Assembly (NCBI RefSeq): GCF_000743715.1
Contig: NZ_JQEY01000005.1
Span: 31,710 to 95,709, forward strand
Source of the DNA: Palleronia rufa
GTDB taxonomy: Bacteria > Pseudomonadota > Alphaproteobacteria > Rhodobacterales > Rhodobacteraceae
Length of the DNA stretch: 64,000 nt
Direction: 5' to 3'
The notes below the pieces were generated by a model. The model was not told the origin of the DNA. It made no database searches and saw only the letters and a list, made by a program, of their open reading frames with translations. How positions within the stretch are numbered: position 1 is the stretch's first letter; each line of letters starts with the position of its first letter. A program made the position numbers and the translations under genes. Below, piece after piece: positions 16,287-57,000 of this stretch.

Positions 16287-17331
16287 AGCATGATGAGATT
16301 AGCTTGAAGCGTATCCAGTATTGGCGAGGTAGTTCGCGCACTCCTGTGGGCTGAAGCGGTCGAGCAGTGTCCCGATCCTGCGCCACGTTGCCTCCATTGT
16401 GCGCTCGGCTGCGTTGCGGAGCATGTGTTTGAGCTTCGAGAAGACCTGTTCAATCGGGTTCAGGTCGGGGCTGTAGGGCGGCAGAAAAAGTAGATGCGCT
16501 TTCGCGTTACGGATCGCCTGCCGCACGGCTTGCCCTTTGTGGCTGCCCAGATTGTCCATAACCACCACATCGCCCGGGCGCAGGGTTGGGACGAGCACGT
16601 GCGCGACATAAGCCCGGAACGCTTCGCCGTTGACGGGACCGTCCAAAACAAAGGGCGCGTCGATCCGATCATGACGCAGCGCTGCGATAAAGGTCATGGT
16701 GCGCCAGTGACCATGCGGGGCCCGCCCGATCAGGCGTTCACCTCTGGGAGCCCAGCCGCGCAGCGGGGCCATGTTGGTCTTGGCCCAGGTTTCATCAATG
16801 AACACGAGACGACGGGGGTCGATCCGGCCCTGGTGCCGCTTCCAGCGCACACGGCGGCGGCTCACGTCGGGGCGGTTCTGCTCCTCGGCGAGTTGGGTCT
16901 TTTTTTGAACGAGTAGCCCGTGCGGCGCACGAAGGCCCAGACGGTGCGGTAGTCGACCTTGAGCCCGCGCTCGGCCAGTTCCACCACCAGTCCGCGCAGT
17001 GTGAACGGCTCCGTTATCCGCTCCAGAAGCCACGCCTCATGCCCGCCTGCAATCTTGCGTGGCGGGTGGCCGCCTGTCCCTGCCGGAGCGCAACTCCCGG
17101 TCGCACGCAAACGCTGCGACCACTTCACAACACTGGACGGAGCCACATCCAGGGCCGCTGCGACCTGACGCACGCTCTCGCCCCCCAACAGCCGCGCCAT
17201 TGCCCTCTCTCGAAGGTCCATTGAAAGTGCTCTACCCACTACTCGCCCTCCATCTTGTGGTCGGCAACAGTGAATCACCAAAATGCAGGCCTGTGAATCC
17301 TCTATCGATTCAGGCTGATTTCATCCCGCTC
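16286..17331 (-). mobile_element. IS630-family insertion sequence, copy 1
   Basis: A 1046-bp element present twice in this window (second copy 23,805 bases downstream) with no difference I could find. Its ends are imperfect inverted repeats of about 25 bp, GAGCATGATGAGATTAGCTT on the left and GAGCGGGATGAAATCAGCCT on the reverse of the right end. It is flanked by a TA duplication (16284-16285 and 17332-17333) inside the sequence CTAG, as expected for IS630/Tc1-like elements. It carries one transposase in two frames. It sits at the convergent ends of pqqE and the ketopantoate-reductase-like gene. Confidence 0.95.
16299..17221 (-). CDS. IS630-family transposase, two frames joined by a -1 frameshift
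   Basis: Frame A (16862-17221) starts [19 protein letters not shown] and encodes the helix-turn-helix part. Frame B (16299-17033) carries the DDE catalytic domain: [30 protein letters not shown] and [11 protein letters not shown]. The frames overlap at a run of seven A on the coding strand (16900-16906). A -1 slip there gives an in-frame product of about 307 residues, reading GYSFKK then [12 protein letters not shown]. Such slippage is typical of IS630. A TTG at 17281 could extend frame A by 20 residues, but the ATG at 17221 fits the family better. Confidence 0.9.
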
Positions 17332-40091: not shown

Positions 40092-41136
40092 AGCATGATG
40101 AGATTAGCTTGAAGCGTATCCAGTATTGGCGAGGTAGTTCGCGCACTCCTGTGGGCTGAAGCGGTCGAGCAGTGTCCCGATCCTGCGCCACGTTGCCTCC
40201 ATTGTGCGCTCGGCTGCGTTGCGGAGCATGTGTTTGAGCTTCGAGAAGACCTGTTCAATCGGGTTCAGGTCGGGGCTGTAGGGCGGCAGAAAAAGTAGAT
40301 GCGCTTTCGCGTTACGGATCGCCTGCCGCACGGCTTGCCCTTTGTGGCTGCCCAGATTGTCCATAACCACCACATCGCCCGGGCGCAGGGTTGGGACGAG
40401 CACGTGCGCGACATAAGCCCGGAACGCTTCGCCGTTGACGGGACCGTCCAAAACAAAGGGCGCGTCGATCCGATCATGACGCAGCGCTGCGATAAAGGTC
40501 ATGGTGCGCCAGTGACCATGCGGGGCCCGCCCGATCAGGCGTTCACCTCTGGGAGCCCAGCCGCGCAGCGGGGCCATGTTGGTCTTGGCCCAGGTTTCAT
40601 CAATGAACACGAGACGACGGGGGTCGATCCGGCCCTGGTGCCGCTTCCAGCGCACACGGCGGCGGCTCACGTCGGGGCGGTTCTGCTCCTCGGCGAGTTG
40701 GGTCTTTTTTTGAACGAGTAGCCCGTGCGGCGCACGAAGGCCCAGACGGTGCGGTAGTCGACCTTGAGCCCGCGCTCGGCCAGTTCCACCACCAGTCCGC
40801 GCAGTGTGAACGGCTCCGTTATCCGCTCCAGAAGCCACGCCTCATGCCCGCCTGCAATCTTGCGTGGCGGGTGGCCGCCTGTCCCTGCCGGAGCGCAACT
40901 CCCGGTCGCACGCAAACGCTGCGACCACTTCACAACACTGGACGGAGCCACATCCAGGGCCGCTGCGACCTGACGCACGCTCTCGCCCCCCAACAGCCGC
41001 GCCATTGCCCTCTCTCGAAGGTCCATTGAAAGTGCTCTACCCACTACTCGCCCTCCATCTTGTGGTCGGCAACAGTGAATCACCAAAATGCAGGCCTGTG
41101 AATCCTCTATCGATTCAGGCTGATTTCATCCCGCTC
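40091..41136 (-). mobile_element. IS630-family insertion sequence, copy 2
   Basis: Same length, ends and orientation as the copy at 16286. The TA duplication is at 40089-40090 and 41137-41138, again within CTAG. The lack of visible differences between the copies implies recent transposition. It is inserted at the last codon of egtD and separates it from the decayed region that follows. Two copies in direct orientation 23.8 kb apart could recombine and delete the segment between. Confidence 0.95.
40104..41026 (-). CDS. IS630-family transposase, two frames joined by a -1 frameshift (copy 2)
   Basis: Same product as in copy 1. Frame A (to 40667) supplies the helix-turn-helix part from [11 protein letters not shown] and frame B (40104-40838) the DDE domain. 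The slippery run of seven A on the coding strand is at 40705-40711. Both frames are intact, so the element is probably active. Confidence 0.9.
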
Positions 41137-44642: not shown

Positions 44643-45536
44643 CTATTCCATCCGCAGCCCTTCGAACCCGAGCGCGGGCAGGATCGCCGGACTCTCCAGC
44701 ATCCCGCGGGCCGTGTGGCCGACGCCCTCGGCCTCGATCAGGCTCCATCCGAACGTCCAGCCCCTCTCGTCTGCGACGGCCCGCGCCATGTCAAATGTTT
44801 GGCGGCCGCGGTCGAGCCGGTCGTCGCCTTGCCGGTCGGCCTGCGCATTGCGGGTCAGGCTTTCGTCGCCGGTGTCTTCGGACCCCAGGTAGACAGTCAC
44901 CGGTGCTGCAAGGTAAGCCTGCAGGAGCGGGTCCGGATCCATCCCTTCGGGAAGGCCGCCGAAGCCATAGGGTGCGGCCTCGTCTGTCGTGGGCAGCACG
45001 TAGGTAGAGGGATTTGCAAGGACGATCCGTTCCACGTCGCGCGGTTCGGCATAGGCCGCATAGCGGGACAGGAACTGACCGCCAGCGGAATGGCCGAAAA
45101 GATAGATCGGCGCCCCAGCACCTTCGCGGTCACGGATCCAGTCGATGAGATCGCCCACCAGTTCGATGGTCCAGACCTCCGGATCGCGCAGCTGGCCGTC
45201 CTCGATCACACCGGCGCGATGGTAGCGCCAGTTGGGAAACCGTTCCTCGTCGAAAAGTGGCGCATAGATCGTGAAGCAGGAACGGTCCGCCACCGTCCGG
45301 GCAGAGTCCCGGTAAGATTCGGCGCCCCGTCCATTGCCGTGGAACACCACCAGCACTGCGGGTGCGGCGCATTCCGACGGGCGGTAGGAAAATATTTCCA
45401 TCGACAGTCCATCCACTTCGGCCACGGTCGCATCCACGCCGAAGCGCCGATCGACGCCTTCCGTTCCGCCGGGCGAGGCAAAAGCCGCCGAAAGCCCCGC
45501 AATCAGGATCAGCGCCCAAGGGGTTGAAATCTTCAT
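44643..45536 (-). CDS. Exported alpha/beta hydrolase (PHB-depolymerase/esterase-like)
   Basis: A 297-residue protein with a signal peptide (PWALILIAGLSAAFA). The hydrolase fold has VLVVFHGNGRGAESYRDSARTVA (oxyanion region), the nucleophile elbow FGHSAGGQFLSRYA, and a late GVGHTARGML holding the catalytic His. An acidic residue in VYLGSEDTGDESL is the probable third member. It resembles polyhydroxybutyrate depolymerase/feruloyl-esterase-like secreted hydrolases, but the substrate is unknown. It is transcribed away from the next operon; 187 bases separate them. Confidence 0.8.
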   Translation of the reverse strand: MKISTPWALILIAGLSAAFASPGGTEGVDRRFGVDATVAEVDGLSMEIFSYRPSECAAPAVLVVFHGNGRGAESYRDSARTVADRSCFTIYAPLFDEERFPNWRYHRAGVIEDGQLRDPEVWTIELVGDLIDWIRDREGAGAPIYLFGHSAGGQFLSRYAAYAEPRDVERIVLANPSTYVLPTTDEAAPYGFGGLPEGMDPDPLLQAYLAAPVTVYLGSEDTGDESLTRNAQADRQGDDRLDRGRQTFDMARAVADERGWTFGWSLIEAEGVGHTARGMLESPAILPALGFEGLRME

Positions 45537-45723: not shown

Positions 45724-46641
45724 ATGACCGTGCCGATTTCGACCGATAGCGAGGGCCTTGTGCCCGTCACACTGGAGTCACGCGGACGCCTTTCCGATCT
45801 GTTCGAGGCCAACGGCCGCGCCTGCTGGTTTCTCTATCCACCGTTTCTCCATCTGACCGGATTGCGCCGCGGGCATCGGATACTGGAAGAGGCCCATGAC
45901 GGAGCGGTGACCCTTTACAAGGCGCGGGATACGGAGTCGGGCCGCTCTCTTGAGCTTTTCGTTCCGCCCATACCGGCCACCCCCGCAACCCTGGCCCATG
46001 CCGTGGCCCGCGTGCGTGCCATCAGCCCTGCATCCCCTGTTCGCATCCGCCACGTCGAGGAACGCGACCTTGCCGCCGTCGCCCGCGCCGGCTTCGTCCT
46101 GCGCGACCGCGACGAAGAGTTCATCTACGATACGGCAAAGATCACGGCGCTTGAGGGATCGGACTTCAGGCGCTTGCGGCGGGAGATTGCCAAGACCTCC
46201 GCCCACTCCGGGTTGTCCGTGCGCGACTACGCCCCGGGCGACGAGGATGCCTGTCTTGCGGTGCTCGACCGTTGGCGGGAGCGTCTCAAGGCGGCCGATC
46301 TGCCCGCCGAAGGATACCGGCTGACCGCGAATTGCCTGCGCCACGCTTCGGGCTGGCCGCCGGACGCGATCCGGGGTCGAGTGTGCGAAGTCAACGGCGA
46401 AGTCCGTGGGTTTGCGTTCTCCGGTCCGATCAGTCGATCCTGCGGGAACATGTTCATCTGCATCACCGACACCGATCTGCGCGGTCTGGCATATCTCATG
46501 CGCTACGACCAGGTGACGCTCTGGCCGACTCTGGCGGAGTTCAACTCCGGCGGGGATGCCGGACGTACAGGGCTGAGTGAGCTCAAGCAGTCGTTCCGTC
46601 CGGTGCGCATGCAGCGGATCTACCGCGCAACCATGACATGA
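45724..46641 (+). CDS. DUF2156/LPG-synthase-C-like acyl or aminoacyltransferase, copy A
   Basis: A 305-residue protein with a tandem-GNAT-like layout resembling the C-terminal catalytic domain of lysyl-phosphatidylglycerol synthases (DUF2156). Features are YPPFLHLTGLRRGHRI, DEEFIYDTAKITALEGSDFRRLRREIAK, LTANCLRHASGW and GFAFSGPISRSCGNMFICITDTDLRGLAYLMRYDQ. Members of this fold use aminoacyl-tRNA or acyl-CoA donors. No membrane segment is present, so it acts in the cytoplasm. It overlaps its paralogue by four bases. The real acceptor is unknown; the downstream ATP-grasp enzyme suggests a peptide-like product. Confidence 0.72.
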   Translation: MTVPISTDSEGLVPVTLESRGRLSDLFEANGRACWFLYPPFLHLTGLRRGHRILEEAHDGAVTLYKARDTESGRSLELFVPPIPATPATLAHAVARVRAISPASPVRIRHVEERDLAAVARAGFVLRDRDEEFIYDTAKITALEGSDFRRLRREIAKTSAHSGLSVRDYAPGDEDACLAVLDRWRERLKAADLPAEGYRLTANCLRHASGWPPDAIRGRVCEVNGEVRGFAFSGPISRSCGNMFICITDTDLRGLAYLMRYDQVTLWPTLAEFNSGGDAGRTGLSELKQSFRPVRMQRIYRATMT

Positions 46642-47576
46642 GCGAAACGAGAACCGATATGGACGCATTGCCCGCCGCGCTCGACGGCCTCTCGCGGATA
46701 GAGGTCTCCGATTGTGAGGTCTTCGATGCGGCGGTGGCGGCGTCAGGTGCGACCGGATGGACCTACTATTTTCCTTACCTGCATTTCTTCAGCCAGCTTT
46801 CGGGTGGTGAGCGGGTACTTTTCGAGCGGACCGCGAACGCCGTGCTTGTCTATCGGCTTGTCCGGAAGCGGGATCGACTGACGCTTTCCCTTCTCGTACC
46901 GCCGTTTCCGTTCGACCACGACGCGCTGGACATCGCCGGCGCGCGGATGGCGGAGGTCAACCGCGACGGGAGGCAGCGCATCAGCCGGGTGCCGGAGGAA
47001 CTGGCCTGGGCGGTCGCGCGCGCTGGGTTCGAATTGCGGTTCAACGACGACGAATACATCTACGACGCGGCGCAGGTGCGTGAGATGGAAGGGCGGGGCT
47101 ACGCCTCCTTGCGCCGCAAGATCGGCCGGTTCGACCGGGATGCCATGGATATCCGTCCGTATGGCGCAGCCGAACGTGCGGGGTGCGAGGCGCTGCTGGA
47201 GGACTGGCGGCAGACCCTCACTGAGCGGGGAATCCGCATCGGACCGTACAAGACCTACGCACAGAGATGCCTTGCGAACGACGGAGCGTTCCACTCCTCC
47301 CGGCTGAGGGGCGAGGTGATCGAGATCGACGGTGCAATCGCGGCCTTTACCTTCGGAGGCCCGATCGACGCGGAGAGCGCAAGCCTGTTCATCACGGTAT
47401 CGGACCATCGCCAGCCCGGATTGGCCTATCTCCAGCGGCATCGGTTCATGGCGCACGATCCCGGCCCCCGTCTGTTCAACGATTTCGTTGACAGCGGCCG
47501 TGCCGGGCTGGCCCAGATGAAGCGGACGTTCCGCCCGGTCCGAATGCACACGCTGCTCAGCGCCCGCAGGTCATGA
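46638..47576 (+). CDS. DUF2156/LPG-synthase-C-like acyl or aminoacyltransferase, copy B
   Basis: A 312-residue paralogue of the preceding protein. It shares YYFPYLHFFSQLSGGERVLFE, NDDEYIYDAAQVREMEGRGYASLRRKIGRFDRD, YAQRCL, FGGPIDAESASLFITVSD and the same ending (MKRTFRPVRMH). The two copies align over their full length but are clearly diverged, so the duplication is old and the roles may differ. The ATG overlaps the upstream stop, giving coupled expression, perhaps of a heterodimer. Donor and acceptor are not known. Confidence 0.72.
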   Translation: MSETRTDMDALPAALDGLSRIEVSDCEVFDAAVAASGATGWTYYFPYLHFFSQLSGGERVLFERTANAVLVYRLVRKRDRLTLSLLVPPFPFDHDALDIAGARMAEVNRDGRQRISRVPEELAWAVARAGFELRFNDDEYIYDAAQVREMEGRGYASLRRKIGRFDRDAMDIRPYGAAERAGCEALLEDWRQTLTERGIRIGPYKTYAQRCLANDGAFHSSRLRGEVIEIDGAIAAFTFGGPIDAESASLFITVSDHRQPGLAYLQRHRFMAHDPGPRLFNDFVDSGRAGLAQMKRTFRPVRMHTLLSARRS

Positions 47577-47900
47577 AGGCTGCCCGCGCCTCGATTCGTC
47601 CGCGTCGCATCGCCGACCGAAGTTTGCCGTCGCAGAGATTTCCAGCTTTCTACCTATGCGTGTGGTGATCAATAATTGCACAACCATAGCATTAGCTCGG
47701 CCAGTGATTATGCATGTTGGGCAACCAGAAAAAATGTAGTCTTGCCAGACCATCCCCCTCAAAACCCGCATAAGTTGTTTCGGCGCCTTTTTTTAATGAA
47801 TTGTGCCGCAATTCGTTGCGGAACGCGAAAACAACAGTAAACCAGTGTTGGAATTGTGTGGCCTGCGTGTCCCATCCAAGAATTTTTGAGAGGTATTACC
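47577..47900 (+). promoter_or_regulatory. AT-rich leader upstream of the NTPase/export operon
   Basis: The 324 bases between the transferase pair and the NTPase gene are much richer in A/T than the surroundings (for example 47660-47740, GTGATCAATAATTGCAC). Several TTG/TAT-like promoter words occur, but I cannot pick one. GAGAGG at 47888-47893 is the ribosome site of the next gene. The composition suggests a regulated promoter or recently acquired DNA. Confidence 0.4.
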
Positions 47901-49679
47901 GTGGTCGCGATGCTGCCCAAGAAGCGAATCGACAATGCCAAGCGGGCGTTCAGCACACGCCGCGTGCCGACCGGCGACATGCGCCGGCTCTTGACCGGCG
48001 ATCTGCGCCCGGAGCCTGGCGACCTGGTGCTTGCCCGGGTGGATGAGATCCTGAAGCACACGAAGCTGGAACTCACCGACGGCCGGAAGGCGCACATGTT
48101 TCCCGGCGACGAGATCATCGTCGCGTTCGGGCACCGATATGCACCCGACCAGTACGAGGCGCAGATCGGTGAGGACCTGTCGCCTTGCGATCTGGTCGCT
48201 GCCGGCGGGCTCGCATCCGTCGAGATTTCACGCCATGAGCGGATGCTGCCGCCCACCCGCATCTCTCCGCTGGGCCTTCTGGCACGCGCTGACGGAACCC
48301 GGATGAATCTGGCCGATTACGGCGTGCGGGCCGGAGAGGGGCCCCCGCCCATCGCGGCGCTGCTGTCCCTGGGCACCTCGATGAACGCAGGCAAGACGCT
48401 CACGGCCATGTCGATGGTCCGCGGGCTCAAGCGCCTCGGCCACAAGGTCGCCGCGCTCAAGATCACCGGGACCGGCGCGGGTGGCGACATCTGGATCGTG
48501 CGCGACGCCGGGGCCGACGTGGTGGCCGATTTCACGGATGCCGGGTTCGCCAGCACCTATCTGACCCCGATCGAGGACATCGAGAGAGGATGCGCGCGGC
48601 TTCTCAACTACGCCGCCGACCAGGGCTGCGACATCGCGGTGATCGAGATCGCGGACGGTCTCCAGCAGCTCGAGACCTCGCGGCTGATCCACAGCCGCTC
48701 GATCCTGGACGTGACGCTGGGCACGGTCTTCGCAGCCTACGACGCCATGGGTGCGAAATACGGGGTCGATGTACTGAGAGCGGCGGGCCACAACGTCATC
48801 GCCATGAGCGGGCGTCTGGGCCGCTCTCCTCTTGGTGTGCGCGAGGCGGAGGCCGCTACCGGCCTTCGCGTGTTCAGCCCGTGGGAACTGCAGGACGGGA
48901 TGCTAATTCCGACGATCCGCAGCTGCGCCGTCGCGGCGCTCAAGGCCCAAGGTGGCGACGTTCCGCATCTTCACCGGCTGGCACGCGATGTGCTGGATCC
49001 GGCAGTCGTGCGGACATCGAATGTCGTAAACCTGATGTCGCCGGCCGCGGTACGGGAAGAGCAGGCCCGCGCCGTGCTGACCTGCGCGATCGAGCATGTC
49101 ATGTCCGCGGAGGTCGACGCGCTTTGCGGTGCGTCTTTCGGCGTGCGCGGCGCGACCCGGAAAAACCGGCGCAACGGATTCCGGCCGCGTCGTGTCGCGA
49201 CCGTCCTGGGCGATCTCTGGGTCCGGGTTCCGCGTCTGCGCCGGGGGGGCTATGGTCCTGGGGAAACGCTTTCGGTTGCCAGCCGTGAGGCGGTCGAGGC
49301 GGTGCTCTACTCCGCGAACGGCCCCGGTTTCGAGGCGGCCGTGTCCGCTCTGGTCGATGCGATCCGGCCCGAAACGGTGTCCGTTCCCGTGACGGGTTCT
49401 CTGGGTCAGGCGGTGATGTCCGCGATCCAGTCCGCCACTCAGACGACCGATCCGACCGTCGGACGCCTACCGCAGCAGGCCGCCGTGGCGGTAGATGACG
49501 GCGAGTTCGATAGCGATCTGGATGACGACGAGCAGGATTCGCTCGACCTTATGAACGAGTACGGGCATACTCGTCGGGCCGAAGGGTTCAACTCCTACGG
49601 GCGTCCGCCGTCCCGTGCCGCCGGCGGTGCGGCACCCGACTACGCTCCGCTTCGCTACATCCCGATTCCGGGCGAATGA
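47901..49679 (+). CDS. P-loop NTPase (DUF1611-like) fused to an IS256-transposase-like domain
   Basis: A 592-residue cytoplasmic protein with two unrelated parts. Residues ~1-145 are an uncharacterised N-terminal domain. Residues ~150-390 form a P-loop NTPase: G158-TSMNAG-K165-T, then VAALKITGTGAGGDIWIVRDAGADVVADFT, IAVIEIADGLQQ and a Ser/Gly-rich GRLGRSPLG, resembling DUF1611/MobB-like NTPases. Residues ~400-475 read like IS256-family transposase sequence (ATRKNRRNGFRPRR, LGDLWVRVPRLRRGGYGPG). A low-complexity acidic tail follows. GTG at 47901 fits GAGAGG best; the ATG at 47910 is possible. The function is unknown. Confidence 0.7.
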   Translation: MVAMLPKKRIDNAKRAFSTRRVPTGDMRRLLTGDLRPEPGDLVLARVDEILKHTKLELTDGRKAHMFPGDEIIVAFGHRYAPDQYEAQIGEDLSPCDLVAAGGLASVEISRHERMLPPTRISPLGLLARADGTRMNLADYGVRAGEGPPPIAALLSLGTSMNAGKTLTAMSMVRGLKRLGHKVAALKITGTGAGGDIWIVRDAGADVVADFTDAGFASTYLTPIEDIERGCARLLNYAADQGCDIAVIEIADGLQQLETSRLIHSRSILDVTLGTVFAAYDAMGAKYGVDVLRAAGHNVIAMSGRLGRSPLGVREAEAATGLRVFSPWELQDGMLIPTIRSCAVAALKAQGGDVPHLHRLARDVLDPAVVRTSNVVNLMSPAAVREEQARAVLTCAIEHVMSAEVDALCGASFGVRGATRKNRRNGFRPRRVATVLGDLWVRVPRLRRGGYGPGETLSVASREAVEAVLYSANGPGFEAAVSALVDAIRPETVSVPVTGSLGQAVMSAIQSATQTTDPTVGRLPQQAAVAVDDGEFDSDLDDDEQDSLDLMNEYGHTRRAEGFNSYGRPPSRAAGGAAPDYAPLRYIPIPGE

Positions 49680-49728
49680 TCCAATCCCGACCCCAACCGG
49701 GGCGGGACGCGCGATAGGGACCCGACCC

Positions 49729-51429
49729 ATGGCCCGACGCCGCAAGGCAGGTGAACGATCCACGATCGACAGGCTCTGGCGCGCATCGCGCGGCGGCTTG
49801 GCCGTGGTTCTGATTTTCAGCGCGTTCGTCAACGTGCTGAAGTTCGCGATGCCGCTGTATCTGCTGCAGGTTCTGGACCGGATCCCGGCCAGCCGCAGCC
49901 TTGAGACCCTGGTGATGCTCACCGCCATCACGGCTGTCGCGCTGGCGGCGGGCTATGCGCTGGATATCGTCCGCGGCCGGATGATGGGCCGATGGAGCGC
50001 ATGGATCGAGGCCAATCTGGGTCCGGAGATCATGCGCCTGGGAACGGGTTACGGCGACGCGCGCGACGAGCAAAACACAGATCAGGCGCTGACCGACCTT
50101 GCCGCCGTGAGCCGCTTTGCCGGCCGGTCGATGCTGCGCTGGCTGGATCTCATCTGGGCCCCGGTCTTCATCTTCGGCGTCTACCTGATCCATCCCGTTC
50201 TGGGATTCGTGGCGATCGGGGCGACGGCCCTGCTGGTCCTGATGGGCGTATTGCAGGACCGCACCACAAGCCCGTCGCGGCGGGCCGCCAGCGCCGCGCG
50301 CCGCGACGGGGGCGAACTCGTGCGCACGCTCGACCGGAACCGGGAATCGGTGGGCGGCCTTCAAATGGGGGAGAACCTGACCGCCCAATGGCGCCGCAAG
50401 GAGACCGGCCGCCTGGTCGAGCGGCAGACCACCGATGCCCGCGGCGACATGTTCCGCACGCTCATGGGGGGACTCGGCCAATATATGCGCATCGGCCTTC
50501 TGGCGGTCGGTGTCTGGCTGGTGGTGCTCGACCAGATAAGCCTGGGCAGCATCTTCGCCGCGCGGGTCATGGCGGGGTTCGGTTTTCGCCTGGTTGAGGG
50601 CGCGGTACGCAACTGGCGCGGGACGCGTGAAGCCCGCGATGCCTATGTCCGGCTGGTCAAGCACCTGTCACCCGCGGATGCCGCCCCTGTATCCGTGCTG
50701 AAGGGCATAGAGACCGCGCCGATGGTGCTCGATTCCGTGGGCCACCGGTATCCCTATCAGCGCAACAGCCTTTTCCGCAGGCTGTCGCTTTCCATCGAAC
50801 CGGGGGAATTTCTGCTGATCACTGGCCCGGCCGGCGCGGGCAAGACGACGTTGACGCGGATCCTGGTCGGCCTGATCGCGCCGCGCTACGGCACCGCCCG
50901 ACTGGGCGATGTGGACGTCACACGCCTGCCGCCGGACATGCGCGGACGGCTGATCGGTTACATGCCTCAACACACCGAGCTCTTCGACGCCACGATCCGC
51001 GAGAACATCGCCCGCATGGGCGACGCGCCGCTCGAAGAGGTCGTCGAGGTGGCGAAGCTGGTGGGTATCCACGACTTCGTGGTCGAACTGCCGGAAGGAT
51101 ACGATACCGTGATCGGCTCCGGCAACAGCGGCATCCTCAGCGGCAGCCAGAGAAAGCGCATCGGGATGGCCCGGGCGTTTTTCGGCCATCCCCGCCTGAT
51201 TGTCCTGGACGAGCCTTCGGCCAATCTGGACTCGCCGTCGCGCCGGGTCATGGAGGCCGCCATGAAGTCCCGCCGGGCGGCCGGTGCCACGATCATCGCG
51301 ACGCAGGCCATCGACTCGCCCCGGCTGTCCCGTCTGGCCGACCGCAACCTGACCCTGGGCGACAAGATCGAGATCACCGAGAAGCAACGCGGCTCATCCC
51401 GCCGGGCCAAGCTGAGGACGGTCAAATGA
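49729..51429 (+). CDS. PrtD-like type I secretion ABC transporter, altered H-loop
   Basis: A 566-residue exporter half: six membrane helices (~25-310) followed by the ATPase. Walker A is GPAGAGKT (366-373), the Q-loop lies in YMPQHTELFDATIREN, the signature is LSGSQRKRIGMARA and Walker B is LIVLDEPSANLD with catalytic Glu495. The conserved switch His is replaced by Gln526 (IIATQAID), which is unusual for this family. PrtD/LapB-like proteins export proteins or peptides through an HlyD adaptor and TolC. The HlyD gene follows with a four-base overlap; no TolC gene is in the window. Confidence 0.88.
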   Translation: MARRRKAGERSTIDRLWRASRGGLAVVLIFSAFVNVLKFAMPLYLLQVLDRIPASRSLETLVMLTAITAVALAAGYALDIVRGRMMGRWSAWIEANLGPEIMRLGTGYGDARDEQNTDQALTDLAAVSRFAGRSMLRWLDLIWAPVFIFGVYLIHPVLGFVAIGATALLVLMGVLQDRTTSPSRRAASAARRDGGELVRTLDRNRESVGGLQMGENLTAQWRRKETGRLVERQTTDARGDMFRTLMGGLGQYMRIGLLAVGVWLVVLDQISLGSIFAARVMAGFGFRLVEGAVRNWRGTREARDAYVRLVKHLSPADAAPVSVLKGIETAPMVLDSVGHRYPYQRNSLFRRLSLSIEPGEFLLITGPAGAGKTTLTRILVGLIAPRYGTARLGDVDVTRLPPDMRGRLIGYMPQHTELFDATIRENIARMGDAPLEEVVEVAKLVGIHDFVVELPEGYDTVIGSGNSGILSGSQRKRIGMARAFFGHPRLIVLDEPSANLDSPSRRVMEAAMKSRRAAGATIIATQAIDSPRLSRLADRNLTLGDKIEITEKQRGSSRRAKLRTVK

Positions 51430-52748
51430 CCCATGCCGACGACACTCCGACCGACACGGCGTTCCGGCACCCCTTCGGACCCGGCCTGGCCATCGCGGGC
51501 TTCGCGATCATCCTGTTTTTCGGCGGCACCTTCGCGGCCTGGTCCGTCATCGTTCCCATGGCCAGCGCGGTCGTCGCGCCGGGACTGGTCAGCGTCGACA
51601 CCAACGTGCGCACGGTCCAGCACCTGGAGGGCGGCATCATCCAGAGCATCGAGGTGCGCGAGGGCACGGAGGTCGAGGCCGGCGACATCCTGCTGCGCCT
51701 GGACAACACGATCCCCGCCGCCGTGATGACCGAGGTCCAGGCCCGGATATTCGAGCTTCAGGCGCTGGAGGCGCGGCTCCTGGCGGAACGCGACGGGGCG
51801 GACAAGGTGACGTTCCCGAAGGAGCTTCGGCTCAAGGTCGGTGACGCGGCCGCGCAGGAGGCCATGCAGGGGCAGAAGGAAGTCTTCGCCAGCCGGCGGG
51901 CGCTGCTGTCGGACCGGCTGACCGTCCTGGAGCAGACCCGTGCCGGTATCGAGAGCGAGATCGAGGGCCTGGAAGGGCAGATCGCATCGGCCGAGCGCCA
52001 GCTGTCCCTTCTGGGCGATGAGATGGAAACGGTGACCACCCTGCTCGACAGGCAGTTGGCCCAGCGCAGCCGCCTTCAGGAACTCCAGCGCGAGCAGGCC
52101 AAGCTGGAAGGAACGATCTCCTCCAACCGCGCGGCAATCGGGACCGCGCGCCAGAGGATGGAAGAGACGACCCTGCGCATGTCCGAACTGCGTGCGTCGG
52201 AAGCGAACTCCGTGGTCGAGGAACTTCGGGCGACGCGGGCCAACGCCTACGAGTTGCGCCAGAAACTGGCCGAAGCGCGCGACGTTCTGCGCCGGACAGA
52301 GATCATCGCGCCGATTCCCGGCGTCGTCGTCAATCTGGGCGTCAGCACCGTGGGCGGCGTCGTCGCGCCCGGTCAGGCATTGCTCGACCTTGTGCCGAGC
52401 GGCGACAAGCTGGTGATCCAGGCGACCATCGATCCGCTGGACATCGATCAGGTGTCCGTGGGGCTTCCGGCGACCGTCTGGCTGTCGGCGCTGAACAGGC
52501 GCAGCCAGACCGGGATCGAGGGCAGCGTCAAGACGATCTCGGCCGACCGGATCACCGACCCCCGCACGGGCGCGGCGTATTACCTGTCGCGGATTGAGCT
52601 CGACCCCGAGGACGTGGAGGGCAGCGAGGTTCCCCTGCAACCGGGAATGAGCGCCGAGATCATGATACGGACCGGGGAGCGCACGGCCTGGGATTATATC
52701 GCAGCGCCGATTTCGCGGGCGATTTCGCGGGGCCTGCGAGAAGAGTGA
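51426..52748 (+). CDS. HlyD-family membrane fusion protein (type I secretion adaptor)
   Basis: A 440-residue adaptor. One N-terminal helix (AIAGFAIILFFGGTFAAWSVI) anchors it. Then comes the lipoyl half-motif VQHLEGGIIQSIEVREGTEVEAGD, a long coiled coil (~100-290, rich in Leu/Glu heptads) and the return half RRTEIIAPIPGVVVNLGVSTVGGVV. The C-terminal beta-barrel has LQPGMSAEIMIRTGERT. It bridges the ABC transporter to an outer-membrane channel. The coupled start (ATGA) shows that it works with the ABC protein upstream. Confidence 0.92.
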   Translation: MTHADDTPTDTAFRHPFGPGLAIAGFAIILFFGGTFAAWSVIVPMASAVVAPGLVSVDTNVRTVQHLEGGIIQSIEVREGTEVEAGDILLRLDNTIPAAVMTEVQARIFELQALEARLLAERDGADKVTFPKELRLKVGDAAAQEAMQGQKEVFASRRALLSDRLTVLEQTRAGIESEIEGLEGQIASAERQLSLLGDEMETVTTLLDRQLAQRSRLQELQREQAKLEGTISSNRAAIGTARQRMEETTLRMSELRASEANSVVEELRATRANAYELRQKLAEARDVLRRTEIIAPIPGVVVNLGVSTVGGVVAPGQALLDLVPSGDKLVIQATIDPLDIDQVSVGLPATVWLSALNRRSQTGIEGSVKTISADRITDPRTGAAYYLSRIELDPEDVEGSEVPLQPGMSAEIMIRTGERTAWDYIAAPISRAISRGLREE

Positions 52749-52795: not shown

Positions 52796-55783
52796 ATGAA
52801 GATCGAGAGCATGAAGCGGCCGGCGTCGGGGAATTTCTGGTGCCGGCACCCCGTGGTCGTGGTGACCTTCGACGCGAACCCCGCCCTTTCGGCTGCGGAT
52901 CGACGGCGGCTACTGGCCGCGATCGGTCCCCAGAGGTCCGATATGCTCGACTTTCCGGCCTGGGCTACCCTGGGTGCGGCCACCGGTCCGGTTCCGGCGG
53001 CCCATGCGGTGGAAGTGCTGGCATTGCTGCTCCAGCGCAGCCTGTGGTGGCCGGTCGCCTACGGCCGGATGGGCCAAGAGGAGGGTGCCGTGTTCGAAAC
53101 GCGGAACCGTCAGGTGGGACGCATCGCGGCCCAGCGCGCCACGGATGTCGTGGCCCGCTGCATGTCCGGCGAGGACGGCCCGACGCTGCGGCAGACCTTC
53201 TTGTCGGCTCTGACCGGATTTCAAAAGCGCACGGCGCGCATGACCCCGGCATTCGATGCGCTGGCCCTTGCCGCAAGCGCCGAGGCAAGGGGCATCTCCT
53301 GGACTAGCGTGGCCGACTCCACATTCGTTCGCCTGGGCTCCGGGCGATTTTCCAAGGCCCTCCGCGGGTCCGAGTCCTCGGACACCTCACTCATGGGCAA
53401 GCGTCTGGCGAAGAAGAAGGCGGTGACCAACGCGATGCTGGCCGCCGCGGGCCTTCCGGTTCCGGAGCAACGGACTGTCCGCTCGGTCCGCAACGCCGTG
53501 CGTGCCTATGTCTCGCTGGGCCGCGAGGTCGTCGTCAAACCCACCGACGGAAATCAGGGCAAGGGCGTGACCGTGCGGCCCGGATCGGCTCTTCAGGTGG
53601 CGCGAGCCTTCGTGCGCGCACGCAAGGTTTCACGCTCGGTGCTGGTCGAGGCCTTCGTGCCGGGGGACGAGTACCGGCTGCTGGTGGTCGGTGGCCGGTT
53701 CCGTGCGGCCAGTCACCGTCGGCCGGCGCGCGTCACCGGAGACGGACGGACCTCCGTTCGTGAGCTTGTCGCCCGCGTGAACGCAGAGCCGCTGCGCGCG
53801 TCCGTGCCCCATGGCCGTCTTGCCGTGCGTCTGCCCATCCCTCTCGACGACAGCGCCGTGGCCCATCTGGCCGGCCAGGGACTGAACACGGAGAGCGTCC
53901 CGTCCGCGGGACAGGTGGTGGAGATCAACGGACTGTCCAATGTCAGCCAGGGCGGCGATACGGTGGACCTGACGGATCGTGTCCACCCGGAAATCCGCCG
54001 GACCGCAGAGCGCGCGGCCCAGCTTCTGGGTATCGACCTCTGCGGAATCGACTTTCTGACTACGGACCTTACCAAACCGCTGTCCGAAGCGCCCGGCGCC
54101 ATCTGCGAAGCCAACACCCAACCCGGACTGAGCCTGCACCTTGTGGTCACGGAGGGTCAGGCGCAGGACGTCGCGGCGCATTACGTGGACACGATGTTTC
54201 CGGAAGGTGCGCGGACCGGTATTCCCGTCGTCGCCCTCACCGGAGGCGCCGGGGCCACCCGGCTCGCCACGAAAATCGCCGTTGCCGCCCGTGAGCAGGG
54301 GCTGCAGGTGGGGCTGTTCCCTGCAGGACTGGCCGATGCGGTCCGGGAAGCGCTGCCGGACTTGGGGCATCCTCTGGCCTTGCCGAGTGTCGAGGCGCTG
54401 TCGTGGGAAGAAAGCATCGACGCCGCCCTCATCATGCTGCCGCCGAGCAGCATCGATCGGACGGGAATCGGACGGGACAAGGTGGATCTGGCCATCGTCC
54501 CTGCGGACCACCGCAAGCCGGCGACCGGCCGGGCCATCGCCGCGCTGGAACAGGCGGCGGATGGCCGGGTCATGTCCGCGGACAATCCAGCGGCCGTGGC
54601 GCGCGCGCTCGATGTGCTGGGCGTCGTCGCACCGGTGCTGCGTTCCGCGCCCGGATCCGCCGCGCCCACCCCGCTTCCGGAGGAGCGCTCAGAGGCGCGG
54701 GTGGTCACCTTCGTTGGCGATATCGGTTTCGGAGAGGCCTACCGGCACTATCCCAAGTGCCGCGACCTGCAACGCATCCTGGACCTGAACGGCTACGGAT
54801 ACTGCATGAGCCGGGTCCAGCATCTCATCTCCGAGTCAGACATGGTGATCGGCAATCTGGAGGTTCCCCTGGCCCCCCGGGTCGACGAACGCCTGCGGGG
54901 ACGCAAGAAGTTCTTGGGCTGGTGTGAGCCGCAGCGTACGCTCGACGCGCTGCGGTCGGCAGGTTTCACGGCATTGTCCCTTGCCAACAACCATGCGCTC
55001 GACTGCGGTCCGCTGGGGCTTGCGGCGACGCAGGACAGCCTGACCCGTGCCGGGATCGTCCCGTTCGGCGCCGGCCGTGACGCCGATATCGCAGCGCGGC
55101 CCATCGTCCGGCAGATCAGGATCGGCGGACGCACCAGATCCGTGGTGGTCTTCGCCGGGTTCGAGCATCGTGACCGCTACGACCGACGCTACAAATGGTA
55201 TGCCTCTGCCGGGTCCGAAGGTGTCGCCAGGCTGGAGCCAGCCGTGATCGCCGAGCATATCGCCGCGCTGCGGTCCGAGCTTGCCGATCCCATTTTTGTC
55301 GCGTTCCCCCATTGGGGGGTCGATTATCAGGATGTCACGGACGGGCAGAGGGACCTTGCCAAGGCTCTCATCGAGGGGGGCGTCGACGCGGTGATCGGCC
55401 ATGGCACCCATAGTTGTCAGAGGATCGAGGTCATCGATGGCCGCCCGGTCGTGTTCGGCCTGGGCAACTTTGTCTGGAACACGCCCGGAAGCGGCTTCGG
55501 CAAGCACGATGCGCCGCCTTTCGGCCTGGTGGTGGATCTGGCGCTGGGCGCCAGCGATGGGTTCACGCTGCGGGTTCATCCGATCCTGACGGACAATGCG
55601 CAGACCCGATTCCGCAACCGTCCTGCCACGGCGGAGGAATTCGATCGCGTGGCCAAGGCATTGCTGCCGGACGAAGGCACGGCCCCCGTCGGCCCCGCCG
55701 GTCGATTGCACATTGAGTTGATGTGCCAAGGGGCTGAGACCTGGGTTCGTCGGGCCGAGGCGGACAGAATCTCGGCGGGCTGA
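52796..55783 (+). CDS. ATP-grasp (cyanophycin-synthetase-like) and CapA-phosphoesterase fusion
   Basis: A 995-residue cytoplasmic protein with three sections. Residues ~1-190 resemble the cyanophycin synthetase N-domain. Residues ~195-465 are an ATP-grasp ligase (VVVKPTDGNQGKGVTV, DEYRLLVVGGRF, CGIDFLTTDL, GAICEANTQPGLSLH). Residues ~475-610 keep a Mur-ligase-like strand but with a broken P-loop, TGGAGATR in place of GTNGKTT. Residues ~632-975 form a CapA/PgsA-like calcineurin phosphoesterase (FVGDIGFGEAY, IGNLEVPL, SLANNHALDCG, FPHWGVDY, GHGTHSCQRIEV, FGLGNFVWN). It should ligate amino acids in an ATP-dependent way. Substrate unknown. Confidence 0.85.
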   Translation: MKIESMKRPASGNFWCRHPVVVVTFDANPALSAADRRRLLAAIGPQRSDMLDFPAWATLGAATGPVPAAHAVEVLALLLQRSLWWPVAYGRMGQEEGAVFETRNRQVGRIAAQRATDVVARCMSGEDGPTLRQTFLSALTGFQKRTARMTPAFDALALAASAEARGISWTSVADSTFVRLGSGRFSKALRGSESSDTSLMGKRLAKKKAVTNAMLAAAGLPVPEQRTVRSVRNAVRAYVSLGREVVVKPTDGNQGKGVTVRPGSALQVARAFVRARKVSRSVLVEAFVPGDEYRLLVVGGRFRAASHRRPARVTGDGRTSVRELVARVNAEPLRASVPHGRLAVRLPIPLDDSAVAHLAGQGLNTESVPSAGQVVEINGLSNVSQGGDTVDLTDRVHPEIRRTAERAAQLLGIDLCGIDFLTTDLTKPLSEAPGAICEANTQPGLSLHLVVTEGQAQDVAAHYVDTMFPEGARTGIPVVALTGGAGATRLATKIAVAAREQGLQVGLFPAGLADAVREALPDLGHPLALPSVEALSWEESIDAALIMLPPSSIDRTGIGRDKVDLAIVPADHRKPATGRAIAALEQAADGRVMSADNPAAVARALDVLGVVAPVLRSAPGSAAPTPLPEERSEARVVTFVGDIGFGEAYRHYPKCRDLQRILDLNGYGYCMSRVQHLISESDMVIGNLEVPLAPRVDERLRGRKKFLGWCEPQRTLDALRSAGFTALSLANNHALDCGPLGLAATQDSLTRAGIVPFGAGRDADIAARPIVRQIRIGGRTRSVVVFAGFEHRDRYDRRYKWYASAGSEGVARLEPAVIAEHIAALRSELADPIFVAFPHWGVDYQDVTDGQRDLAKALIEGGVDAVIGHGTHSCQRIEVIDGRPVVFGLGNFVWNTPGSGFGKHDAPPFGLVVDLALGASDGFTLRVHPILTDNAQTRFRNRPATAEEFDRVAKALLPDEGTAPVGPAGRLHIELMCQGAETWVRRAEADRISAG

Positions 55784-55932
55784 CGGCAGACTGGGGTGTC
55801 ATGGCGTGCCCCCGTGGCGAACGGACAAGATGTCGCGGAACGCCGGGCGGTCTTTGGAGTTACTGCAACCAAGCCGCGGGCTCCGTCCCGGTCGGATGCG
55901 CGCATGATCCATGCCCGCCATCAGTTTATGGA

Positions 55933-57000
55933 ATGCGCGTGTCAGTTTTTCTCCACGGGGTCGCCACGGCCCTCCCGGTCCACGACCTTCCCCAGGACAT
56001 CGTACAGGCCAGGGCGCAGGACCTGCTGGGGCCGAAATATCCGCAGTTTCAGCGGCTTCTGTCCACCTTCGCAAGTGCGGGGATCGAAACGCGGCACTCC
56101 GTCGTTCCTATAGAGTGGTTCGAAAGTCCCCACGGCTGGAAGGAGCGCAACGACGCCTACATCGCCGGCGCCACGCAGCTTTTCATCGACGCGGCCCGGG
56201 CGGCGCTGACGGCGTCGGACTGGCGTGCGGAGGATGTCGATTGCATTGTCACGGTTTCCTCGACGGGCATCGCCACACCGACCCTTGAAGCCCGCGCCAT
56301 GGAACAGATGGGCTTTCGGCAGGACGTCCGGCGGGTCCCGGTCTTCGGCCTGGGATGCGCAGGCGGCGTGTCCGGACTCTCGGTCGCGCAGTCCCTCGCC
56401 GCTGCCCGGCCGGAAGAGCGTGTCCTGCTGGTCGTGGTAGAGACCTGCACCCTGTCCTTCCGCACCGACCGTTTGCAGAAGGCCGACATCATCGCCACCG
56501 TGCTCTTCGGCGACGGGGCGGCCGCGGCGTGCCTGTCGGGCCTCCGCTCAGAACGGCAACGGGTGTCGCTGGGTGCAGGCACGCAGACGACATGGCCGGG
56601 AACGCTGGGGATCATGGGATGGGATGTGGACGACACCGGCCTTGGAGTCGTCTTCGACCGGTCGATTCCGGGGTTCGTGATCGACCACATGGGGGGCGCG
56701 GTGGATCGTGCCCTTGCGGCCACCGGTCTGGCGCGCGGCGACATCGCCCGTTTCGTCTGCCATCCGGGCGGAGCCAAGGTCGTCACAGCGATCGAGAGCG
56801 CGTTGCATCTTGAGCAGGGCGCGCTTCAGGCAGAGCGCGAGGTTCTGCGGACCGCGGGCAACATGTCCGCGCCGACCGTCCTTTTCGTGCTGGAGCGGGT
56901 GCTGAACGAGGGGGCGACAGGGCAGATGATGGCGTCGGCCCTTGGGCCCGGGTTCTCCGCCGCGTTCCTTCCGTTTCATGTCGAGGCTGCGGCCTCCTGA
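55933..57000 (+). CDS. Type III polyketide synthase (chalcone/alkylpyrone synthase family)
   Basis: A 355-residue ketosynthase with the complete type III catalytic triad: Cys142 (GLGCAGGVSGL), His277 (VCHPGGAK) and Asn310 (TAGNMSAPT). The WDVDDTGLGVVFDRSIPGFV block is typical of bacterial PKS of the BpsA/alkylresorcinol group. It condenses fatty-acyl-CoA with malonyl-CoA to make alkylpyrones or alkylresorcinols. I chose the ATG at 55933 because upstream in-frame sequence (55801-55932) is not protein-like. A methyltransferase-like gene follows with a one-base overlap, as in B. subtilis bpsA-bpsB. Confidence 0.9.
   Translation: MRVSVFLHGVATALPVHDLPQDIVQARAQDLLGPKYPQFQRLLSTFASAGIETRHSVVPIEWFESPHGWKERNDAYIAGATQLFIDAARAALTASDWRAEDVDCIVTVSSTGIATPTLEARAMEQMGFRQDVRRVPVFGLGCAGGVSGLSVAQSLAAARPEERVLLVVVETCTLSFRTDRLQKADIIATVLFGDGAAAACLSGLRSERQRVSLGAGTQTTWPGTLGIMGWDVDDTGLGVVFDRSIPGFVIDHMGGAVDRALAATGLARGDIARFVCHPGGAKVVTAIESALHLEQGALQAEREVLRTAGNMSAPTVLFVLERVLNEGATGQMMASALGPGFSAAFLPFHVEAAAS

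Follow-up and report, generated by a model that had tools for sequence, protein, structure and literature searches.

How did a complete P-loop NTPase of Palleronia rufa come to end in sequence that resembles a transposase, and is that sequence a part put to new use or the trace of an accident? The gene in question lies on the forward strand at 47901-49679 of the window, that is, the whole stretch of 64,000 nucleotides analysed here. As the sequence-only reading had it, the gene is a single uninterrupted open reading frame of 592 codons, and it is present in one unbroken copy in its own genome; a GAGAGG-type ribosome site serves the GTG start at 47901, which is consistent with the starts of the orthologues. 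The proposed complete NTPase was likewise confirmed. The Walker A motif GTSMNAGKT occupies residues 158-166 (48372-48398), residues G158, G164, K165, K187, D196 and E249 are invariant across 28 NTPase homologues, and the fold matches dethiobiotin synthetase, the SRP GTPases and the DUF1611 protein TM0796 (2g0t) with Z of about 15-17, so that this part of the protein combines the Walker A and the fold that define a SIMIBI P-loop NTPase. The conservation of the N-terminal beta-rich domain is shared with stand-alone NTPase relatives, some of which are labelled 'DUF1611' by NCBI. TM0796, a DUF1611/DgcN-like protein, may share the two-domain architecture of the fusion's NTPase (Z 15.8, range 61-342, a score tied with many SIMIBI folds); the Pfam DUF1611 profile (PF07755) reaches 14.6 bits, below its gathering score of 25, and gives weak matches to 10 of 11 fusions. 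DgcN itself acts in a pathway that racemises acidic D-amino acids. The SIMIBI P-loop fold and the P-loop sequence are also those of dethiobiotin synthetase (BioD) and MobB, but sequence alignment to them is limited to the P-loop region. Unlike the DUF1611/DgcN proteins, the fusion has an ABC exporter operon and a transposase-derived C terminus. The tail is acidic as claimed, with 15 D/E residues and a net charge of -9 in the last 75 residues. The coordinates of all these parts and of the neighbouring genes are collected in Table 1.

Table 1. Parts of the fusion gene and neighbouring genes, in window coordinates
Feature	Coordinates	Strand	Remarks
Alpha/beta hydrolase	44643..45536	-	Conserved neighbour: nearly all fusion loci, many stand-alone loci
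LPG_synthase_C/GNAT-fold acyl- or aminoacyl-transferase 1	45724..46641	+	PF09924, E 1.7e-12
LPG_synthase_C/GNAT-fold transferase 2	46638..47576	+	PF09924, E 2.8e-13
N-terminal beta-rich domain of NTPase	47901..48341	+	Residues 1-147; AF2 model pLDDT about 97
SIMIBI-class P-loop NTPase domain	48342..48950	+	Residues 148-350; fold matches and invariant residues
Variable linker	48951..49040	+	Residues 351-380; low pLDDT around 370-380; poor conservation
Helix matching alpha-2 of IS256 dimerisation domain	49041..49127	+	Residues 381-409; VIA alignment to 6xg8
NDB beta-hairpin of IS256 transposase	49128..49265	+	Residues 410-455; PF00872 and 6xg8 profile match
Three-helix remnant of IS256 HTH domain	49266..49448	+	Residues 456-516; recognition residues lost
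Acidic disordered tail and stop codon	49449..49679	+	Residues 517-592; pLDDT below 50
Type I secretion ABC permease/ATPase (PrtD-like)	49729..51429	+	TIGR01842, E 3.3e-119
HlyD-type membrane fusion protein	51426..52748	+	TIGR01843 above cut-off
CphA-like ATP-grasp ligase fused to CapA (PGA_cap)	52796..55783	+	NF010623 residues 67-568, PF09587 residues 637-895

The segment between linker and tail descends from an IS256-family transposase, of which it represents the N-terminal region. Pfam Transposase_mut (PF00872) matches residues 382-462 with 44.1 bits (E 1.6e-11), against a curated cut-off of 21 bits, and is matched by 8 of 11 fusions individually. When the C termini of 11 fusions were compared by hhalign with 9 genuine IS256 transposase N termini drawn from related genomes, 128 columns aligned (probability 99.3%, E 4.6e-20), spanning IS256 positions 17-146 and ending just short of the catalytic domain. 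The IS256 homology proposed from the letters alone thus stands, but the length given for it, about 75 residues, was too short: the segment really covers about 135 residues (approximately 381-515). A profile built from fusions only, with no IS256 sequence in it, was searched against the whole PDB with hmmsearch, and the sole significant chain was the ISCth4 transposase (6xg8, E 3.7e-8). The expected structural likeness to IS256 N-terminal regions was also borne out, as the ISCth4 transposase is the only strong PDB match of the predicted C-terminal fold (Foldseek E 3.1e-4, prob 1.00; VIA alignment to 6xg8 residues 27-110 with Z 9.6 and rmsd 2.6 Å over 79 residues) and the model contains the NDB fold of a helix and a long hairpin; this fold match is not independent, because the alignment behind the C-terminal model contained IS256 rows. 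Independent of such rows are the fusion-only profile search and the full-length AF2 model, which was made with no IS256 sequences and displays the identical order of helix, long hairpin (410-455, with the motifs RRNGFR and VRVPRLRRGGY) and three helices (462-470, 477-488 and 499-514). Chance similarity to a transposase is ruled out by the E-values and the fold match.

The domain names used here (dimerisation, NDB, HTH) are taken from the description of the IS256 transposase in PMC7780238, according to which the NDB of the ISCth4 transposase has no known structural homologues. With ISCth4 TnpA (IS256/Mutator; PDB 6xg8/6xgw/6xgx; PMC7780238) the fusion shares the order of dimerisation helix, NDB hairpin with RNG and VPR, and three HTH-like helices. 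It differs from IS256 transposases in sitting behind an NTPase and ahead of an acidic tail, in lacking the HTH and minor-groove contact residues, and in lacking the catalytic RNase H domain, whose absence had been noticed at the outset: the transposase match stops before it, and a DATY-type DDE motif sought in 20 fusions was found in none. No flanking terminal inverted repeats were found around 47400-50200.

We mapped the contact residues of 11 aligned fusions onto ISCth4 numbering. The equivalent of R70, the arginine of RNG and a DNA contact in ISCth4, is retained in 10 of them, P90 in all 11 and R91 in 10. Residues that define the fold, at the positions of G83, P90 and P99, persist across very divergent fusions. 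An RNG-type motif is found in 17 of the 20 fusions and VPR in 19; RNG is gone from L025, L031 and L056, the last two of which carry a later ERNG string outside the hairpin and were counted as lacking the motif. The net charge of the hairpin is +3 to +10 in most fusions, compared with +2 to +7 in real IS256 transposases. In contrast, the minor-groove anchor R104-Y105-R107 and the HTH residues Y120, G123, S125, T126 and R127 are lost in the aligned fusions, and the contact residues STR are absent from 20/20, whereas genuine IS256 sequences retain G-S-T-R almost throughout. When the counterpart of Y120, G123, T126 or R127 is mutated, the IS256 transposase binds DNA far less well or not at all (PMC7780238). 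Because the HTH residues for binding IS ends are gone in every fusion checked, end-specific DNA binding is unlikely and recognition of IS ends has very probably been lost. In most fusions the transposase module has been reduced to a basic hairpin carried by helices.

Such a remnant could still bind DNA, and the chief rival to the explanation that we prefer, in which the captured module is a protein- or polyanion-binding arm, is an autoregulator that acts through DNA binding. BirA and NadR are enzyme-repressor fusions; by analogy the NTPase would sense substrate or nucleotide, and the segment would bind its own promoter DNA and control the operon. All three would then consist of an enzyme joined to a DNA-binding module, although the module of the fusion is of transposase origin and has lost its target-recognition residues. 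The retained RNG-type and VPR motifs and a positive charge that in most members is at least that of real IS256 transposases fit this idea, as does the rarity of an adjacent two-component system, seen in 1 of 20 fusion loci versus 9 of 24 stand-alone loci (Fisher p 0.013, kinship ignored). Nevertheless, we regard it as unlikely, given the loss of the ISCth4 anchor and HTH equivalents and the absence of any upstream motif common to the fusions that is clearly above shuffled controls. An EM motif search for a common operator 5' of the fusions returned a weak GAATTnTGCCGC-like motif that scored little better than dinucleotide shuffles and lay on either strand at scattered positions; it was discarded as operator evidence, the shuffled controls being nearly as good. 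As a separate observation, the CtrA-box-like pattern TTAA-N6/7-TTAA occurs 5' of 4 of 18 fusion genes (L081, L082, L084 and L086; 0.3 expected from shuffles) and 5' of none of 38 stand-alone NTPase genes.

The history of the fusion can be read from its relatives. We collected 20 distinct fusions, mostly from Paracoccus but also from other Paracoccaceae/Rhodobacteraceae, from Microvirga and from a Mesorhizobium MAG, the last one degenerate in the scan of species genomes. The genus of P. isoporae (125 genomes sampled) yielded 13 fusions and 13 stand-alone NTPases, with both in one genome; in the family of the window (394 genomes sampled) the NTPase was found in 29 and the fusion in two. Its presence in only 1 of 14 genomes of its own genus marks the locus as accessory, and horizontal spread is probable. 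The 20 fusions group as a single clade of the NTPase tree (support 97/96) once most of the very-long-branch rows are left out; a first tree that included very long branches did not resolve the group but was compatible with one origin, and so is a tree of the transposase segment alone, with weak support (48/0). The order of modules is identical in all fusions, the segment is present in 20/20 members of the clade with no loss observed, and no IS-related DNA was found around the fusion gene. A local scar or recent IS insertion is ruled out by the orthologues with the same fusion. In 11 pairs, for which dN/dS values are rough given the high dS of several, the segment scored 0.04-0.46, the NTPase 0.01-0.28 and the fast-evolving tail, the least conserved part of the protein, about 0.1-1.1 and mostly 0.5-1.1; the segment is therefore retained, under looser constraint than the NTPase. 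A non-adaptive relic, i.e. a one-time read-through fusion kept merely as a tolerated C-terminal spacer, could account for this faster evolution and for the eroded motifs of L025, L031 and L056, and stand-alone relatives do manage without the segment. It is a weaker rival, and an improbable one, when set against a segment dN/dS well below 1 in all 11 comparisons, the G83, P90 and P99 equivalents kept in very divergent members and the universal presence of the segment in the clade. Altogether, a SIMIBI NTPase of the DUF1611/dethiobiotin-synthetase-like family gained the IS256 N-terminal region once, with its dimerisation helix, NDB hairpin and HTH helices, the catalytic domain being dropped and an acidic tail following. 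This evolutionary part, a single origin and domestication under selection, is well supported, and it upholds the initial view of a domesticated sequence rather than an insertion.

The surroundings of the gene are conserved as well. A type I secretion (T1SS) ABC protein and HlyD are found in 20/20 fusion loci, CphA/CapA and the alpha/beta hydrolase in most, and the PrtD-like ABC gene lies directly 3' of the fusion gene in most of them. The earlier label of a biosynthetic locus fits these genes less well than that of a secretion-linked operon that includes a CphA-like/CapA protein, and it is in such operons that the fusion has been kept under selection. In the window this protein (52796-55783) has the Mur-ligase C-terminal part of CphA largely replaced; the joining of a CphA-like (cyanophycin-synthetase-like) ATP-grasp part to CapA recurs across fusion loci. 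Directly 3' of it, at 55801-57000 (+), lies a chalcone-synthase-like type III polyketide synthase, a relative of which, 58% identical, occurs in fusion locus L110. A PADLOC scan for defence systems gave no match, and no biotin or Mo-cofactor genes were recognised adjoining the fusion gene. Elsewhere in the window, two ORFs that begin identically and are both 244 residues long (16299-17033 and 40104-40838, both on the minus strand) stand about 24 kb apart and probably represent a repeated mobile element.

At the 24 stand-alone NTPase loci the ABC exporter is of another kind, and its gene follows immediately in nearly every case; a hydrolase is frequent there, and some of these loci include an aspartyl beta-hydroxylase or a two-component system. 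Thus the extension goes with one exporter type. Loci L057-L067, L072 and L102-L120 display a conserved trio of alpha/beta hydrolase, DUF1611-like NTPase and ABC exporter, often joined by the aspartyl beta-hydroxylase, as a system of its own. PrtD-type exporters are known for substrates with C-terminal signals, and the extension is found only where the adjoining exporter is a PrtD-type ABC with HlyD, which would suit an extension acting as docking or secretion signal, its acidic Gly/Asp-rich tail engaging the ABC transporter. This weaker rival is equally improbable: cytosolic NTPases are not typical substrates, no part of the protein is less conserved than the tail, and in the tails, inspected by eye, no RTX repeats were noted and the conserved hydrophobic C-terminal motif of PrtD substrates was not seen.

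The explanation that we favour, with a chance close to even, is that the domesticated IS256 module serves as an adaptor, oligomerisation or polyanion-binding arm on an NTPase of a secretion-linked operon; its mechanism part is not well supported. An IS256-type element would have inserted in frame at the 3' end of the NTPase gene and been trimmed ahead of its catalytic domain. The NTPase would provide the chemistry, presumably ATP-dependent activation or N-modification of an amino-acid-like substrate, a reaction that we infer; a very distant homologue (L068:5777-9910, from a small-genome alphaproteobacterium) lies beside genes for an ArgB-like kinase, an ArgC-like reductase and an aminotransferase, and these neighbours hint at amino-acid chemistry. 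The module, no longer recognising IS ends, would form a C-terminal arm whose helices could pair subunits and whose basic hairpin could bind an acidic partner (its own acidic tail, a partner protein or a polyanionic product), and which would keep the enzyme assembled or close to the ABC/HlyD/CapA machinery. Several observations count against this adaptor: the R70-equivalent arginine retained in most fusions could reflect remaining DNA binding, RNG is lost in L025, L031 and L056, and the faster evolution of the segment relative to the NTPase may mean that it is only a tolerated spacer.

Eukaryotes offer familiar examples of entire transposases that have been domesticated. Rare is a clear case from bacteria in which an unrelated enzyme has gained the DNA-end-binding part alone as a stable domain, and no earlier report of such a capture was found in the literature searched, which was covered in part. 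That a transposase end-recognition module, the IS256 NDB and its helices, was exapted once into a metabolic NTPase and, within a secretion/peptide-capsule operon, now binds a protein or a polyanionic product in place of DNA ends is a tentative reading, with somewhat less than an even chance. So far the NDB fold has been described only in transposases. As the state before the change (ISCth4 with DNA), pre-fusion relatives and about 20 fusions are known, the change of function is directly testable. The finding also exposes an annotation trap: the fusion on a Microvirga ossetica plasmid (L073:11950-13713; NZ_CP016620.1, WP_099515943.1), an NTPase fusion without catalytic transposase domain, carries the RefSeq label 'transposase', and similar hybrids are therefore probably hidden among discarded mobile-element matches. 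No characterisation of the conserved operon of alpha/beta hydrolase, NTPase, ABC exporter and sometimes CphA/CapA was found in the literature searched, and as far as found this operon is itself a system new to description. Common to about 20 related bacteria, the hybrid is an inherited, repurposed part and not a random genetic scar.
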